Positions 6,171-15,665 of a DNA stretch of 15,665 nucleotides are shown piece by piece. How positions within the stretch are numbered: position 1 is the stretch's first letter; every line of letters starts with the position of its first letter. A program made the translations under genes and the position numbers. Origin of the DNA: Tannerella sp. (GTDB taxonomy: Bacteria > Bacteroidota > Bacteroidia > Bacteroidales > Tannerellaceae); assembly GCA_031267485.1 (NCBI GenBank), contig JAIRYY010000012.1:1-15665 (forward strand), written 5' to 3'. The notes under the pieces were generated by a model. That model had not been told where the DNA came from, did no database searches, and was given only the letters and a program-made list of their open reading frames with translations.

Positions 6171-7829
6171 ATGCTGAAATCATTGTTTATACGGAATTAT
6201 GTGTTGATAGACGAACTGGATATTCGTTTCGAGGATAATTTTTCTGTTATAACGGGCGAAACGGGAGCCGGCAAGTCGATTATTCTCGGAGCGTTATCGC
6301 TTGTTCTGGGAGAACGCGCCGATTCAGGAAGCATCCAGTCGGGAAAGGACAAGTGCCTTATTGAAGCCGTTTTTGACATATCGACCTATTGTCTTGAACG
6401 GTTTTTTCAGGAAAATGACCTTGAATATGATGCGACGTCATGCATGTTCAGGCGGGAATTATACAGTTCCGGGAAATCGCGCGCCTTTATCAATGATTCG
6501 CCCGTTCCGCTTTCTGTCGTTAAAGAGCTGGGCGGTATGTTGATTGATGTACATTCGCAGCATCAGAACCTGCTGCTTGCCGATACGCGTTTTCAGCTCA
6601 ACGTGGTTGATTTGATGGCGCATGACGGCAAACAGCTTGCCGCTTACCGGGACGAATATGACCATTACCTTTCCCTGTGCGGCGCGCTGGCCGATTTGGA
6701 AAACAAAGCTTCGGCCATGAAGCAGGAGGAAGACTACGTTCGTTTTCAGTACGAGGAACTCGACGCGGCAAAATTGCAGGCCGGCGAGCAGGATGAACTG
6801 GAAAAGGAGGCCGGTATGTTGTCTCATGCGGAAGAAATAAAAACGGCGCTGTATAAAATTACGGAATTGCTGAACGGCGAGGATTATTCCGCCGTATCAT
6901 CCCTGCGGGAGGCTCAGGCTTCCATGGAACAGTTGTCCGCCTGTTTTCCGAAAGCAAAAGAATATGCCGGCCGGCTTCGCGCTTCATATATCGACATCCA
7001 TGATTTGGCTTCCGAAACGGACGTGCTCAAGGATGATATTGAGTTTGACCCCGAACGGCTGGAACGGGTCAATGACAGGATAAATACGATTTATTCGCTG
7101 CAGCAAAAGCATAAAGTGTCATCCATCGAGGATCTGATTGCCCGGAGAGATGATTTTGCCGCACAGCTTAACGCCATTGATTCTTTTGATGAAGAGCTGG
7201 CTGCATTGACCAAACGTTGCAGGGAGTCCTGCAAATTGTTGATTGAACAGGCTGCCGTAATAACCGGATTGAGGAAGAAAGCTTCCGGGACGGTTGAAAA
7301 ACAGCTTACGGAACGGATGGTGTTGCTTGGCATGCCCAACGCGCGTTTTCAGATATTGTTCGCTCCGAAAGGCAAACCGTCTGCCGATGGAATGGATGAG
7401 GTGTCGTTTCTTTTCTCGGCAAACAGGAACGAACAGTTGAAATCCGTGGCGCAGACGGCATCCGGAGGCGAGATTTCACGCCTTATGCTGTGCGTCAAGG
7501 CCATGATTGCCGGATATGCCGCCCTACCTTCCATTATTTTTGATGAGATTGACATCGGCGTTTCGGGTGAGATTGCCGACAAAATGGCTGGTATCATGCA
7601 TGATTTGGGGCGGAAAATGCAGGTAATGACCATCACGCATCTGCCGCAGATTGCAGCGAAAGGCAACGCCCATTATTTTGTTTATAAGGAAGATACGCCT
7701 GAACGTACCTGTACGCGCATCCGGCGTCTCGGCGACGGGGAGCGGGTGGATGAAATAGCGCGTATGCTGAGCGGAACGCGGATGACACAGGCCGCGGTCG
7801 ACAATGCGAAATCTCTGCTGGGTTTATAA
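6171..7829 (+). CDS. recN: DNA repair protein RecN (SMC-like ATPase)
   Basis: A 552-residue protein of normal family length. RecN is an SMC-like ATPase that binds DNA ends and helps recombinational repair of double-strand breaks. It begins MLKSLFIRNYVLIDELDI. Walker A GETGAGKS is at 29-36, with the central antiparallel coiled coil from about 150 to 370. The ABC signature TASGGEISRLML is near 424-435, and Walker B SIIFDEIDIGVSGEIADKM follows near 450. The D- and H-loop region contains TITHLPQIAAKGNAHYFVYK. It is the last gene of the dnaN cluster, three bases after the DUF4835 gene. Its TAA stop lies inside the left inverted repeat of the tandem-array element, so the insertion, if it is one, abuts the coding end without altering it. 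Confidence 0.97.
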   Translation: MLKSLFIRNYVLIDELDIRFEDNFSVITGETGAGKSIILGALSLVLGERADSGSIQSGKDKCLIEAVFDISTYCLERFFQENDLEYDATSCMFRRELYSSGKSRAFINDSPVPLSVVKELGGMLIDVHSQHQNLLLADTRFQLNVVDLMAHDGKQLAAYRDEYDHYLSLCGALADLENKASAMKQEEDYVRFQYEELDAAKLQAGEQDELEKEAGMLSHAEEIKTALYKITELLNGEDYSAVSSLREAQASMEQLSACFPKAKEYAGRLRASYIDIHDLASETDVLKDDIEFDPERLERVNDRINTIYSLQQKHKVSSIEDLIARRDDFAAQLNAIDSFDEELAALTKRCRESCKLLIEQAAVITGLRKKASGTVEKQLTERMVLLGMPNARFQILFAPKGKPSADGMDEVSFLFSANRNEQLKSVAQTASGGEISRLMLCVKAMIAGYAALPSIIFDEIDIGVSGEIADKMAGIMHDLGRKMQVMTITHLPQIAAKGNAHYFVYKEDTPERTCTRIRRLGDGERVDEIARMLSGTRMTQAAVDNAKSLLGL

Positions 7830-7848
7830 TCCCCAAATGTCCATTAGC
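7827..7848 (+). repeat. Left 22-base inverted repeat of the recN-rho element
   Basis: Pairs with the reverse complement of 8044-8065 at 19 of 22 positions (mismatches at positions 2, 8 and 20). The shared core is AAATGTCCATT. The first three bases are the recN stop codon. It forms one end of the unit containing the 23-base array. Confidence 0.8.
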
Positions 7849-7881
7849 CCGATTCCGTGTGTGCGACATGCCAATACTTGC

Positions 7882-8029
7882 AAAGACGCTTTGTCCGAAC
7901 GAACAAAGGCGCTTTGTCCGAACGAACAAAGGCGTTTTGTCCGAACGAACAAAGACGTTTTGTCCGAACGAACAAAGACGCTTTGTCTGAACGAACAAAG
8001 ACGCTTTGTCCGAACGAACAAAGGCGCTT
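7882..8029 (+). repeat. 23-base tandem repeat array, six full copies plus ten bases
   Basis: Units start at 7882, 7905, 7928, 7951, 7974 and 7997, and a 10-base partial copy starts at 8020. The consensus runs AAAGRCGYTTTGTYCG and ends AACGAAC. Only three positions vary (5, 8, 15) and all variation is by transition. Each junction contains CTTTGT...ACAAAG, a 20-base imperfect palindrome (CTTTGTCCGAACGAACAAAG), so every copy can form a small hairpin. Since 23 is not a multiple of three and the unit has no stop in most frames, several long frames cross it on both strands; none looks like a real gene. There are no spacers, so it is not CRISPR. Confidence 0.92.
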
Positions 8030-8043
8030 GTGAAGAATCTGCC

Positions 8044-8065
8044 GCCAATGGACATTTTGGGATAA
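8044..8065 (-). repeat. Right 22-base inverted repeat of the recN-rho element
   Basis: On the minus strand it reads TTATCCCAAAATGTCCATTG plus GC, matching the left copy at 7827-7848 at 19 of 22 positions. It lies eight bases before the A-run of the bidirectional terminator. Confidence 0.8.
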
Positions 8066-8073
8066 TGTGATAC

Positions 8074-8107
8074 AAAAAAAAAGCGAACCGTCGGGTTCGC
8101 TTTTTTT
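8074..8107. terminator. Bidirectional intrinsic terminator between recN and rho
   Basis: GCGAACC (8083-8089) pairs with GGTTCGC (8094-8100) around GTCG, flanked by nine A (8074-8082) and seven T (8101-8107). It therefore works in both directions, ending the recN message from the left and the rho message from the right, 27 bases past the rho stop. Confidence 0.93.
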
Positions 8108-8134
8108 CGATTATATGCGGCATGACGGCCTTTG

Positions 8135-10144
8135 TCATCCGTTCATGGATGCCAAAAACTCCATATTGCTGGACGTGTTCTCAAGCTGTTTCTTGACAAA
8201 CTCCATCGCTTCGATTGAATTCATGTCCGAAAGGTATTTGCGCAACACCCACATGCGGTTAATTGTTGCCCCGTCCTGTAACAAATCGTCTCTTCTGGTG
8301 CTGGATGCAATAATGTCAACGGCAGGATAAATACGCTTGTTGGACAATTTCCGGTCAAGCTGAAGTTCCATATTGCCGGTGCCCTTAAACTCTTCGAATA
8401 TGACATCATCCATTTTAGAACCCGTTTCCGTAAGGGCCGTTGCAAGAATTGTCAGGCTGCCTCCGTTTTCAATGTTGCGTGCAGCGCCGAAGAACCGTTT
8501 CGGTTTCTGGAGCGCATTGGCGTCGACGCCACCCGACAGGACTTTGCCGGATGCCGGCTGAACGGTATTGTACGCACGGGCAAGACGCGTTATGGAATCG
8601 AGAAGGATGACTACGTCGTGGCCACATTCAACCATGCGTTTCGCCTTGTTGAGCACGATATCCGCAATTTTCACGTGACGTTCCGCCGGTTCGTCGAAAG
8701 TCGATGCAATCACTTCCGCATCAACGCTACGCGCCATGTCGGTAACTTCTTCGGGACGTTCGTCTATCAGCAGGATAATCATGTATACTTCCGGGTGATT
8801 GGTCGCAATGGCATTTGCTATATCTTTGAGTAACATCGTCTTACCGGTCTTGGGCTGGGCGACGATAAGTCCGCGCTGGCCTTTTCCGATAGGAGAGAAC
8901 AGGTCGACCACGCGTACGGATATCTGGTCGTATACTTTATGCGACTTTTTTTCCGTAAGCCTGAATTTCTCGTCCGGGAAAAGAGGGGTGAGATGGTCAA
9001 ACGGTACGCGGTCGCGCACATCTTCAGGTGCACATCCGTTTATTTTATCCACTTTAACTAACGGGAAATATTTTTCGCCCTCTTTCGGCGGCCTGATAGG
9101 CCCTTCGACAAGGTCTCCGGTTTTAAGCCCGAACAGTTTTACCTGCGACTGCGACACATAGATGTCATCGGGCGACGACAGGTAATTGTAGTCGGAAGAA
9201 CGTAAGAACCCGTATCCGTCCTGGATTATTTCCAGAACACCCGAACCGGTCAGTATTCCGTCGAAATCGAACGTTTTTTCCGTTTCCATTTGCATGGGAG
9301 GGAGCTGACGCTGATTAATGTTCTGGTTATTATGTTTTGCCGGACGGGCGCCCTGATTCTGAATGGGCGCCGGTTCGACAATTGCGCCCGGCTGTTTGTT
9401 CTCGGCATTTGCCGCGATTGGGATCACCTGATCCAGCATCGTATTGGTTTCGTTATTGTGCCTGAATATAACTCTTTTGTTATTGCCGGATTGCGACTGT
9501 GCATCCGGTTTCTCCTGCGCCTCCTGCTTCTTCTCCGGTTTGTCGGACGTTTTTTCATCGGCATCGGGAGTTGTTGGCTTAACCGCCGGAGCCTGCGCCG
9601 TATTCGCCGGAACCGGAGGTAAAACGTTGGCTATAAGGGGAGCTACGGGCTGGACAGTTGCGCTATCTTTAGCGGCAATATTGCCGAATTGAACCTTTTG
9701 AGGCTGCTGTTCCTTTACCGGAATCGTTATTGTTTTTTCCTTTTTAGGCCGTCCTCTTTTGGCTTTTGGCGTACTGTCGCCGACCGGGTCGGCTTTCACT
9801 TCACCCGTTTGCTGTCCGTTGTTTTTCGGCGGCCGTCCCCTGCGGTTTTTTTCGGATTTGCTATCCGGCGCCGGTTCACTTCCTTTTGCGGAAGAGGATT
9901 CCTGTTTGTTTTTGTTTGGATGTTCAACAACCCGTTGAGATCTTTTTTCTTTTTTACGGGCTTCTTTTTCCTTCTCTTTTTCAACCTGTATGCCAGCCCA
10001 TGAAATAGCCTGTTCGTCAAGGATTTTGTAGACTAATTCTTCTTTCTGCAAAGATTTTGCTTTTTTGACGCCCAAGTTTTCTGCAATTTCCTGTAATTCG
10101 GATAATTGTTTTTCGTTTAATTCAAGAATGTTGTATTTTTGCAT
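8135..10144 (-). CDS. rho: Transcription termination factor Rho, long Bacteroidota form
   Basis: A 669-residue protein, about 250 longer than E. coli Rho. Rho is a hexameric RNA helicase that ends transcription of untranslated RNA. Residues 4-48 are the Rho N-terminal helical domain ([19 protein letters not shown]). Residues about 55-290 are a low-complexity Lys/Pro/Gln/Ala-rich insert with two AT-hook-like motifs, RRGRPPK (101-107) and KRGRPKK (129-135). Residues 298-372 are the cold-shock-type RNA-binding domain ([15 protein letters not shown]). The ATPase core follows: Walker A QPKTGKT (430-436, where E. coli has PPKAGKT), [13 protein letters not shown] (458-470), Walker [17 protein letters not shown] (511-526), and the Q-loop and R-loop region [27 protein letters not shown]. 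It lies downstream of tilS on the same strand and has its own promoter-like site at 10279. Confidence 0.97.
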
Positions 10145-15583: not shown

Positions 15584-15665
15584 GGAAAGATGGGTGAGTG
15601 GCTGAAACCAACAGTTTGCTAAACTGTCGTACGGGTTACCGTACCGGGGGTTCGAATCCCCCTCT
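15584..15665 (+). tRNA. tRNA-Ser (anticodon GCT), 3' end cut by window
   Basis: A class II tRNA. The acceptor begins GGAAAGA at 15584. The anticodon stem ACAGT/ACTGT encloses TTGCTAA, giving anticodon GCT. A long variable arm (TACGG / CCGTA) and the T-arm GGGGGTTCGAATCCCCC follow. The window ends after TCT, so the last four acceptor bases and the discriminator are missing. Confidence 0.94.

Follow-up and report, generated by a model that had tools for sequence, protein, structure and literature searches.

What kind of sequence is a short tandem array, enclosed by inverted repeats and devoid of a transposase gene, that separates the convergent genes recN and rho in a Tannerella sp. genome? It may be a mobile element, a repeat array which transposon ends have come to enclose, or a structured segment of the recN mRNA. 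The window (the whole stretch of DNA analysed) measures 15,665 nucleotides. The features of the region are the following.

6171–7829, plus strand: recN, upstream neighbour, intact reading frame (TIGR00634, 467.8 bits, cut-off 407.85)
7826–7830, no strand: left target-site duplication ATAAT, including the recN stop TAA at 7827–7829 (sequence)
7831–8061, no strand: complete element, 231 bp, very probably an IS1380-type MITE with an internal minisatellite
7831–7848, plus strand: left terminal inverted repeat CCCCAAATGTCCATTAGC, 16/18 complementary to the right end
7849–7880, no strand: left subterminal leader, with the same sequence in the other full copy, on contig C329 (alignment)
7881–8029, no strand: 23-bp dyad-symmetric unit CAAAGACGCTTTGTCCGAACGAA, 6.5 copies (Tandem Repeats Finder)
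8030–8043, no strand: right subterminal tail, common to the copies on contigs C329 and C302 (alignments)
8044–8061, minus strand: right terminal inverted repeat, reading CCCAAAATGTCCATTGGC on this strand (sequence)
8062–8066, no strand: right target-site duplication ATAAT (sequence)
8076–8107, no strand: hairpin of 14 bp, perfectly paired and with A/T tracts, in the recN-rho spacer but outside the element (inverted-repeat search)
8135–10144, minus strand: rho, convergent downstream neighbour (TIGR00767, 638.4 bits, cut-off 509.45)

The array is the only one given there by Tandem Repeats Finder (period 23, 6.5 copies, 94% matches, no indels, score 256), which agrees with the six and a half units counted earlier from the letters alone; its length could be mis-assembled. 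The inverted arms returned by an inverted-repeat search (7826–7848 and 8044–8066) measure 23 nt and are 87% complementary. They had been described as 22-base repeats matching at 19 positions. Inverted ends are indeed present, but shorter than described: the outer five bases are the ATAAT duplication, a near-palindrome that made the arm appear too long. The terminal repeat proper, CCCCAAATGTCCATTAGC / GCCAATGGACATTTTGGG, measures 18 bp, 16 of which match. Since the left ATAAT contains the recN stop codon, the element starts at the recN stop and leaves the recN frame undamaged. Only leader, array and tail are found between the ends. The element thus features, as expected of a MITE, terminal inverted repeats (16/18 bp), a target-site duplication and no transposase gene.

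The 23-bp unit resembles its own reverse complement (identity 0.70 vs 0.49 in shuffled units, p 0.027 uncorrected, whole-unit symmetry test); in a cruder palindrome test, based on 7-bp arms, the window array scores a non-significant p of 0.095. As the array is dyad-symmetric, the whole element folds back. Three overlapping ORFs of 88–140 aa, unlikely to be genes, traverse the array (7633–8138), as all frames of the unit are free of stop codons. Other repeats in the window, GGC-rich and with periods of 9–42 (GGCGGCGTTGGCGG...), are located at 89–234; we guess that they are coding, and they probably encode a glycine-rich protein.

Copies, empty sites and ends

The genome hosting the window (G000) is represented by 2.73 Mb in 351 contigs, and is 77% complete. 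A 301-base query matched four places in it: the window, a full copy on C329, the right-hand half of a copy on C302, and a weak match on C301, which is a 69% match to a different 23-bp array lacking MITE ends. The C329 copy (L078, 6888–7496) is 85% identical to the window element (E 8.3e-79). It features leader and tail as in the window, 5.5 units and its own duplication, ATTAT. The difference in unit number between the two copies (6.5 vs 5.5), counted as the sequence-only reading had proposed, leads us to infer that the array can expand. Three of the five scored C329 units read GAGCGAAC, in contrast to GAACGAAC in all six units of the window array, and such copy-specific variants suggest that each array has been homogenised independently.

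The C329 copy splits a gene after ATG AGA AAC ATC GCA ATT AT, and ATTAT is found on either side. The insert, including one duplication, measures 213 bp, corresponding to 71 codons, and the frame is open throughout, with no stop. Joining the flanks yields the lipoprotein-like leader MRNIAIICLLAAIFSASCG, reading MRNIAIICLLAAIFSASCGHE... The downstream part of the gene corresponds to PF14307 (WbsX), and the signal peptide that received the insert belongs to a WbsX-like lipoprotein gene. A leader similar in kind, free of the insert, is found in the best-matching orthologues, those of G002 (79%) and G027 (78%).

Sites lacking the element were found also at recN, where a comparison of recN-rho lengths had been suggested. 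A recN match was found in 34 of 41 genus genomes, and 30 of these loci were examined. In five of them, the window's included, recN faces rho within the fetched stretch. The element is absent in all four relatives (G008, G002, G034, G006), in which the gaps measure 111, 129, 76 and 0 bp, respectively; the gap in the window measures 305 bp, or about 69 bp once the element and one duplication are subtracted. No MITE ends were seen at the remaining 25 loci, in which the gene order is different or the stretch ended. The recN-rho sites without the element belong to other species and were compared by gap length and end search, so that the C329 gene provides the stronger proof of an empty site. Dispersed copies and sites free of the element, both typical of MITEs, are therefore found.

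Ends of this type mark many genomes of the genus. The search for the inverted-repeat ends in host and related genomes, advised at the outset, gave, for CCMAAATGTCCATTRG with up to one mismatch, 265 hits spread over 23 of 41 genus genomes, counting that of the window, vs 8 for the reversed control pattern, both figures being sums over a per-genome table. G007 contributes 125 of the hits and G062 41. A loose search (up to three mismatches) in G000 was not above control (27 vs 36 hits) and was dropped. A scan of named genomes identified at least 117 stretches with such ends. Among the 80 matches listed, they reside in Tannerella, Tannerellaceae, Prevotellaceae, Paludibacter, Proteiniphilum, Dysgonamonadaceae and Candidatus Symbiothrix genomes, in one Cyclobacteriaceae genome, and in others. 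Many of the Tannerella-type records presumably are termite-gut genomes.

Opposed ends located 50–900 bp apart, with up to two mismatches per end and full flanks, define 76 non-identical elements from 289 loci. Identical 5-bp flanks were found in 46 of the 76, vs 10.6 on average and 19 at most in 500 shuffled re-pairings. The duplicated targets are ATAAT (14), ATTAT (11), TTTAT (9), ATAAA (5), ATTAA (4), and three single cases; a perfect 5-bp duplication is absent in 30 elements. Some MITE ends lie at or close to contig ends, and elements of this type may break assemblies. A non-autonomous mobile element with an expanding array had been surmised for the window, a view that would be contradicted by ends and array occurring only here, constant in length in all relatives and with no empty site. 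None of this holds: further copies, empty sites, duplications, a matching transposase family and arrays of different length speak for the surmise.

IS1380 elements duplicate 4–5 bp of target and have ends starting with CC. The duplications described here measure 5 bp, and the ends start with CCC. Sequences of IS1380 transposases are enclosed by such ends in L084 (C346 of G027), L085 (C230 of G033) and L197 (a Bacteroidales genome); in L077 (C358 of G027), which is cut by the contig end, one end adjoins an IS1380 transposase sequence. C-terminal transposase pieces correspond in Pfam to DDE_Tnp_1_4. In L197 the transposase is split into a 379-aa frame, scoring 232.9 bits to NF033539 (transpos_IS1380, cut-off 180), and a 60-aa N-terminal frame in another register. 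L197 thus places a transposase of the family between these ends, and L197, L084 and L077 share their ends with the elements, none with an undisturbed transposase gene. No intact autonomous copy, with an undisturbed full-length transposase gene, was found, including in the 351 contigs of the 77% complete G000.

MITEs classically originate by internal deletion of an insertion sequence. A 319-bp relic on contig C147 of G000, in which 25 transposase residues from the N-terminus adjoin 28 from the C-terminus, has undergone such a deletion; on C284 of the same genome, an end is followed by the start of a transposase running off the contig. The transposase C-termini of L197 (3–1478) and L077 (6089–6656) are nearly identical (98.9% alike). 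The source genomes, a Bacteroidales bacterium and a Tannerella sp., have the isolate-name prefix Gx481 in common, and the near-identity denotes either a recent transfer or a binning error.

Altogether, the element between recN and rho is very probably an IS1380-derived MITE carrying a minisatellite. An IS1380-family transposase acting in trans would recognise ends of the CCCAAAATGTCCATTRG type, and insertion would occur at AT-rich 5-bp targets (ATAAT, ATTAT, TTTAT and similar), which would then be duplicated. At the window site, the target included the recN stop codon, and its duplication kept recN intact. Made by units close to their own reverse complement, the element would be a quasi-palindrome at any copy number. 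Units would be added, removed and made uniform, slippage or unequal recombination being the probable mechanism, with which the different unit numbers and the copy-specific variants agree.

Tandem arrays and their periods

At a Tandem Repeats Finder score of 50, tandem arrays were found in 16 of the 76 elements, and none in the other 60. The best periods are 41 (five elements), 42 and 123 (three each), 23 (two), 7, 21 and 63 (one each); 63 and 123 correspond to 3 x 21 and 3 x 41. Eleven of the 76 elements come from G062 stretches (L090–L108), and most of them carry 41–42-bp arrays, made by several different units.

Similar periods were found outside the elements. In G030, sampled as 20 evenly spaced 20-kb stretches of one contig (L310–L329, 400 kb), the period is 41 or 42 in 51 of 90 arrays and 40 in five, and many different units are found; 63 arrays with a period of 20–44 and at least 2.5 copies were sorted into 34 unit families. 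A lag count of exact 14-mers, independent of Tandem Repeats Finder, gives 7, 20 and 32 places at lags 40, 41 and 42, respectively, and at most four at every other lag. Lag peaks are found at 23, 42, 46 and 69 in G000, at 21, 41, 42 and 63 in G062, and weakly at 21, 23, 42 and 63 in G007; the peaks at 46, 63 and 69, being multiples, add no independent period, and the stretches of these three genomes were chosen partly for carrying these ends or arrays. Few arrays and no clear period peak were found in G022 and G026, each sampled as 400 kb of contiguous stretches from one or two contigs. Twenty genomes representing 20 other families (274 kb) yielded 11 arrays, seven of them with periods of 20–24, hence arrays of 20–24 bp may be widespread in the order. 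Cyclobacteriaceae DNA carrying these ends (12 loci, 85 kb) yielded no array. A further dispersed repeat, GTCATTGCGAG...GAAGCAATCC, was noticed in G000 (L335, L349, L004), often adjoining 21-bp arrays.

Dyad symmetry varies with the period. The whole-unit test gives p<0.05 for 37 of 68 arrays of 40–44 bp, for four of 31 arrays of 21–23 bp, the window's included, and for none of 13 arrays of other periods. With 7-bp arms, p<0.05 was obtained for two of 31 arrays of 21–23 bp over five genomes, and for none of the 11 in G000.

The array could accordingly be the primary component, one of a host-wide class with periods of 21, 23 and 41–42 bp, which MITE ends would have enclosed by insertion or end capture. 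Related 23-bp repeats are found without these ends in G004, G023, G022, G028 and G027; nine such arrays have no end-like sequence (up to three mismatches) within about 400 bp, three matches with three mismatches being located farther off. G030, rich in arrays, yet has no MITE-end hit at up to one mismatch. The C302 half copy (L079, 1769–1909) is broken inside the array, and is followed by a short stretch and by an unrelated 42-bp array, which recurs in C256 (L346, 58/62 bases); MITE end and array remnant are in this way joined to an unrelated array. In contrast, all three places in G000 in which the unit of the window is found carry also the end of the window MITE. As both complete copies have the same leader and tail, ends and array have moved together here. 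Precedence of the array is a serious possibility, to which we give somewhat less than an even chance.

Arrays with unrelated units, inside and outside MITEs, cluster at 21, 23 and 41–42 bp in some of the sampled genus genomes, near the 22, 23 and 41 nt described for Porphyromonas gingivalis (see below), and similar periods despite unrelated ends and units suggest a host cause. Rather speculatively, a 'ruler' of Bacteroidales might make or keep dyad-symmetric arrays at 21, 23 and 41–42 bp, which MITEs, including BrickBuilt (see below), might acquire and spread. We think it doubtful, if conceivable, that these periods reflect about two or four DNA turns, irrespective of unit sequence or transposon carriage, and just as tentative is the notion that the ruler resides in replication, in repair or in the nucleoid, rather than in the elements themselves. 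Should the recurrence of periods be upheld in wider surveys, 'why 23 and 41 bp?' would become a testable question for the origin and maintenance of bacterial minisatellites.

The recN-rho spacer and RNA folding

The element is probably read into the recN mRNA, as part of the 3' UTR. RNA folding of the plus strand, which is the recN strand, gives -78.8 kcal/mol (z -4.56 vs shuffled sequences), folding of the minus strand -108.6 kcal/mol (z -10.18). The sequence-only reading had located array and arms exactly between the recN stop and a shared terminator. The recN stop is in place, inside the left duplication; the terminator is a putative one, the 8076–8107 hairpin, whose role is suggested by its shape and which is absent from the listing of a simple terminator scan. 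Within the array, the same scan gave two terminator-like sites, both on the minus strand, the shuffled mean being 0.7 for the region.

TTTG-N17-23-TAnnTTTG is the Bacteroidetes-type promoter motif. No match to it was found in the element, and four were found elsewhere in the window, at 811, 1240, 15464 (minus strand) and 15516; a promoter scan recognised no sigma-70-like site inside the element either, and a promoter role was discarded. One tRNA-Gly, two tRNA-Leu and one tRNA truncated by the window end are encoded at 867–1194 and 15584–15665.

Domestication of the element as a structured 3' UTR, an RNA hairpin protecting or terminating the recN mRNA, with its repeats retained for that function, is very unlikely. 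Both strands fold much better than shuffled sequences, but the better fold is that of the strand not used by recN. The element is set between the recN stop and the terminator-like hairpin, but it is missing in four of four relatives in which recN faces rho, and the other full copy is inside a gene. In G062, intergenic arrays lie in convergent gaps in six of 13 cases vs 18 of 70 gaps, the numbers being small; arrays in G030 show no such preference, eight of 48 placed arrays vs 42 of 203 gaps being convergent. A long structured 3' UTR, proposed as an alternative from the letters alone, may be a consequence of the insertion, and is unneeded to account for the element. A CRISPR-like or regulatory iteron array, which the in-register direct repeats of about 23 bp may recall, is practically out of the question, as the units are head-to-tail without spacers, on which ground a CRISPR identity was rejected, no Rfam family matches the array or the rest of the element, and transposon ends and target duplications bound the array.

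Comparison with known systems

The sequence-only reading could name no standard element with a tandem array, and no transposase, inside terminal inverted repeats; precedents are found in Porphyromonas gingivalis. In the available text of Klein et al. 2015 (PMC4596501), BrickBuilt is described as a MITE with leader, tail and internal 23-nt direct repeats without spacers; long stem-loops are predicted, and unit number differs among copies and strains. According to the same text, tandem repeats of P. gingivalis measure 22, 23 and 41 nt, and the 23-nt type is found in BrickBuilt, the 41-nt type in MITE464/PgRS, both with IS5-type ends. The window element shares with BrickBuilt the MITE architecture with a spacer-free 23-nt array, leader and tail, the predicted folding into long stem-loops, the variable unit number and the order Bacteroidales (PMC4596501, as far as available). 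This is a likeness of architecture, not membership. BrickBuilt ends are IS5-type (GAGACC-type, GAGACCTTTGCA and variants) and differ by eye (Table 2 of PMC4596501, in the part available) from the CCCAAAATGTCCATTRG ends associated with IS1380. The duplications reported there for BrickBuilt are irregular (CT, GAAA, AAAAA), those of the window family measure 5 bp; BrickBuilt is reported in the portion at hand as always intergenic, whereas one copy of the window type, that on C329, is inside a gene (PMC4596501). The 23-nt BrickBuilt unit, AGAYCATARTATCCTCTCRTRTG, is unrelated to that of the window, and its consensus was found, with up to two mismatches, in none of 393 genomes of the order sample (G000 included); no P. 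gingivalis genome was hit that could serve as a positive control. MITE464/PgRS, compared by description, carries repeats of 41 nt, a period shared by many G062 elements, and has IS5-type ends as BrickBuilt (PMC4596501, available text).

IS1380-family insertion sequences encode a transposase (NF033539/PF13701) between the same ends, and the window element has none. BOX elements of Streptococcus pneumoniae are short and mobile and hold internal modules whose number varies, and the likeness resides in these traits. Rickettsia palindromic elements, likened here by description, insert in frame in protein genes as the C329 copy does (PMC10969869, in the part available). They differ in that here a single in-frame case was found, and transposon ends and duplications are present. 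The available text of PMC9426551 and PMC5771137 holds nothing decisive for the element. No earlier account of array-bearing IS1380-type MITEs from the genus emerged from a literature search covering few subscription papers.

The MITE with an internal 23-nt minisatellite is therefore of a known kind, that of BrickBuilt, and the IS1380-type ends are new. The IS5-type partner of BrickBuilt was deduced from the ends, no transposase remnant being described inside it in the available text (PMC4596501). In contrast, the ends described here are shared by insertion sequences and by a deletion relic. The window element adds a further Bacteroidales instance of a minisatellite-carrying MITE, in which both the ends and the unit are unrelated to those of BrickBuilt.
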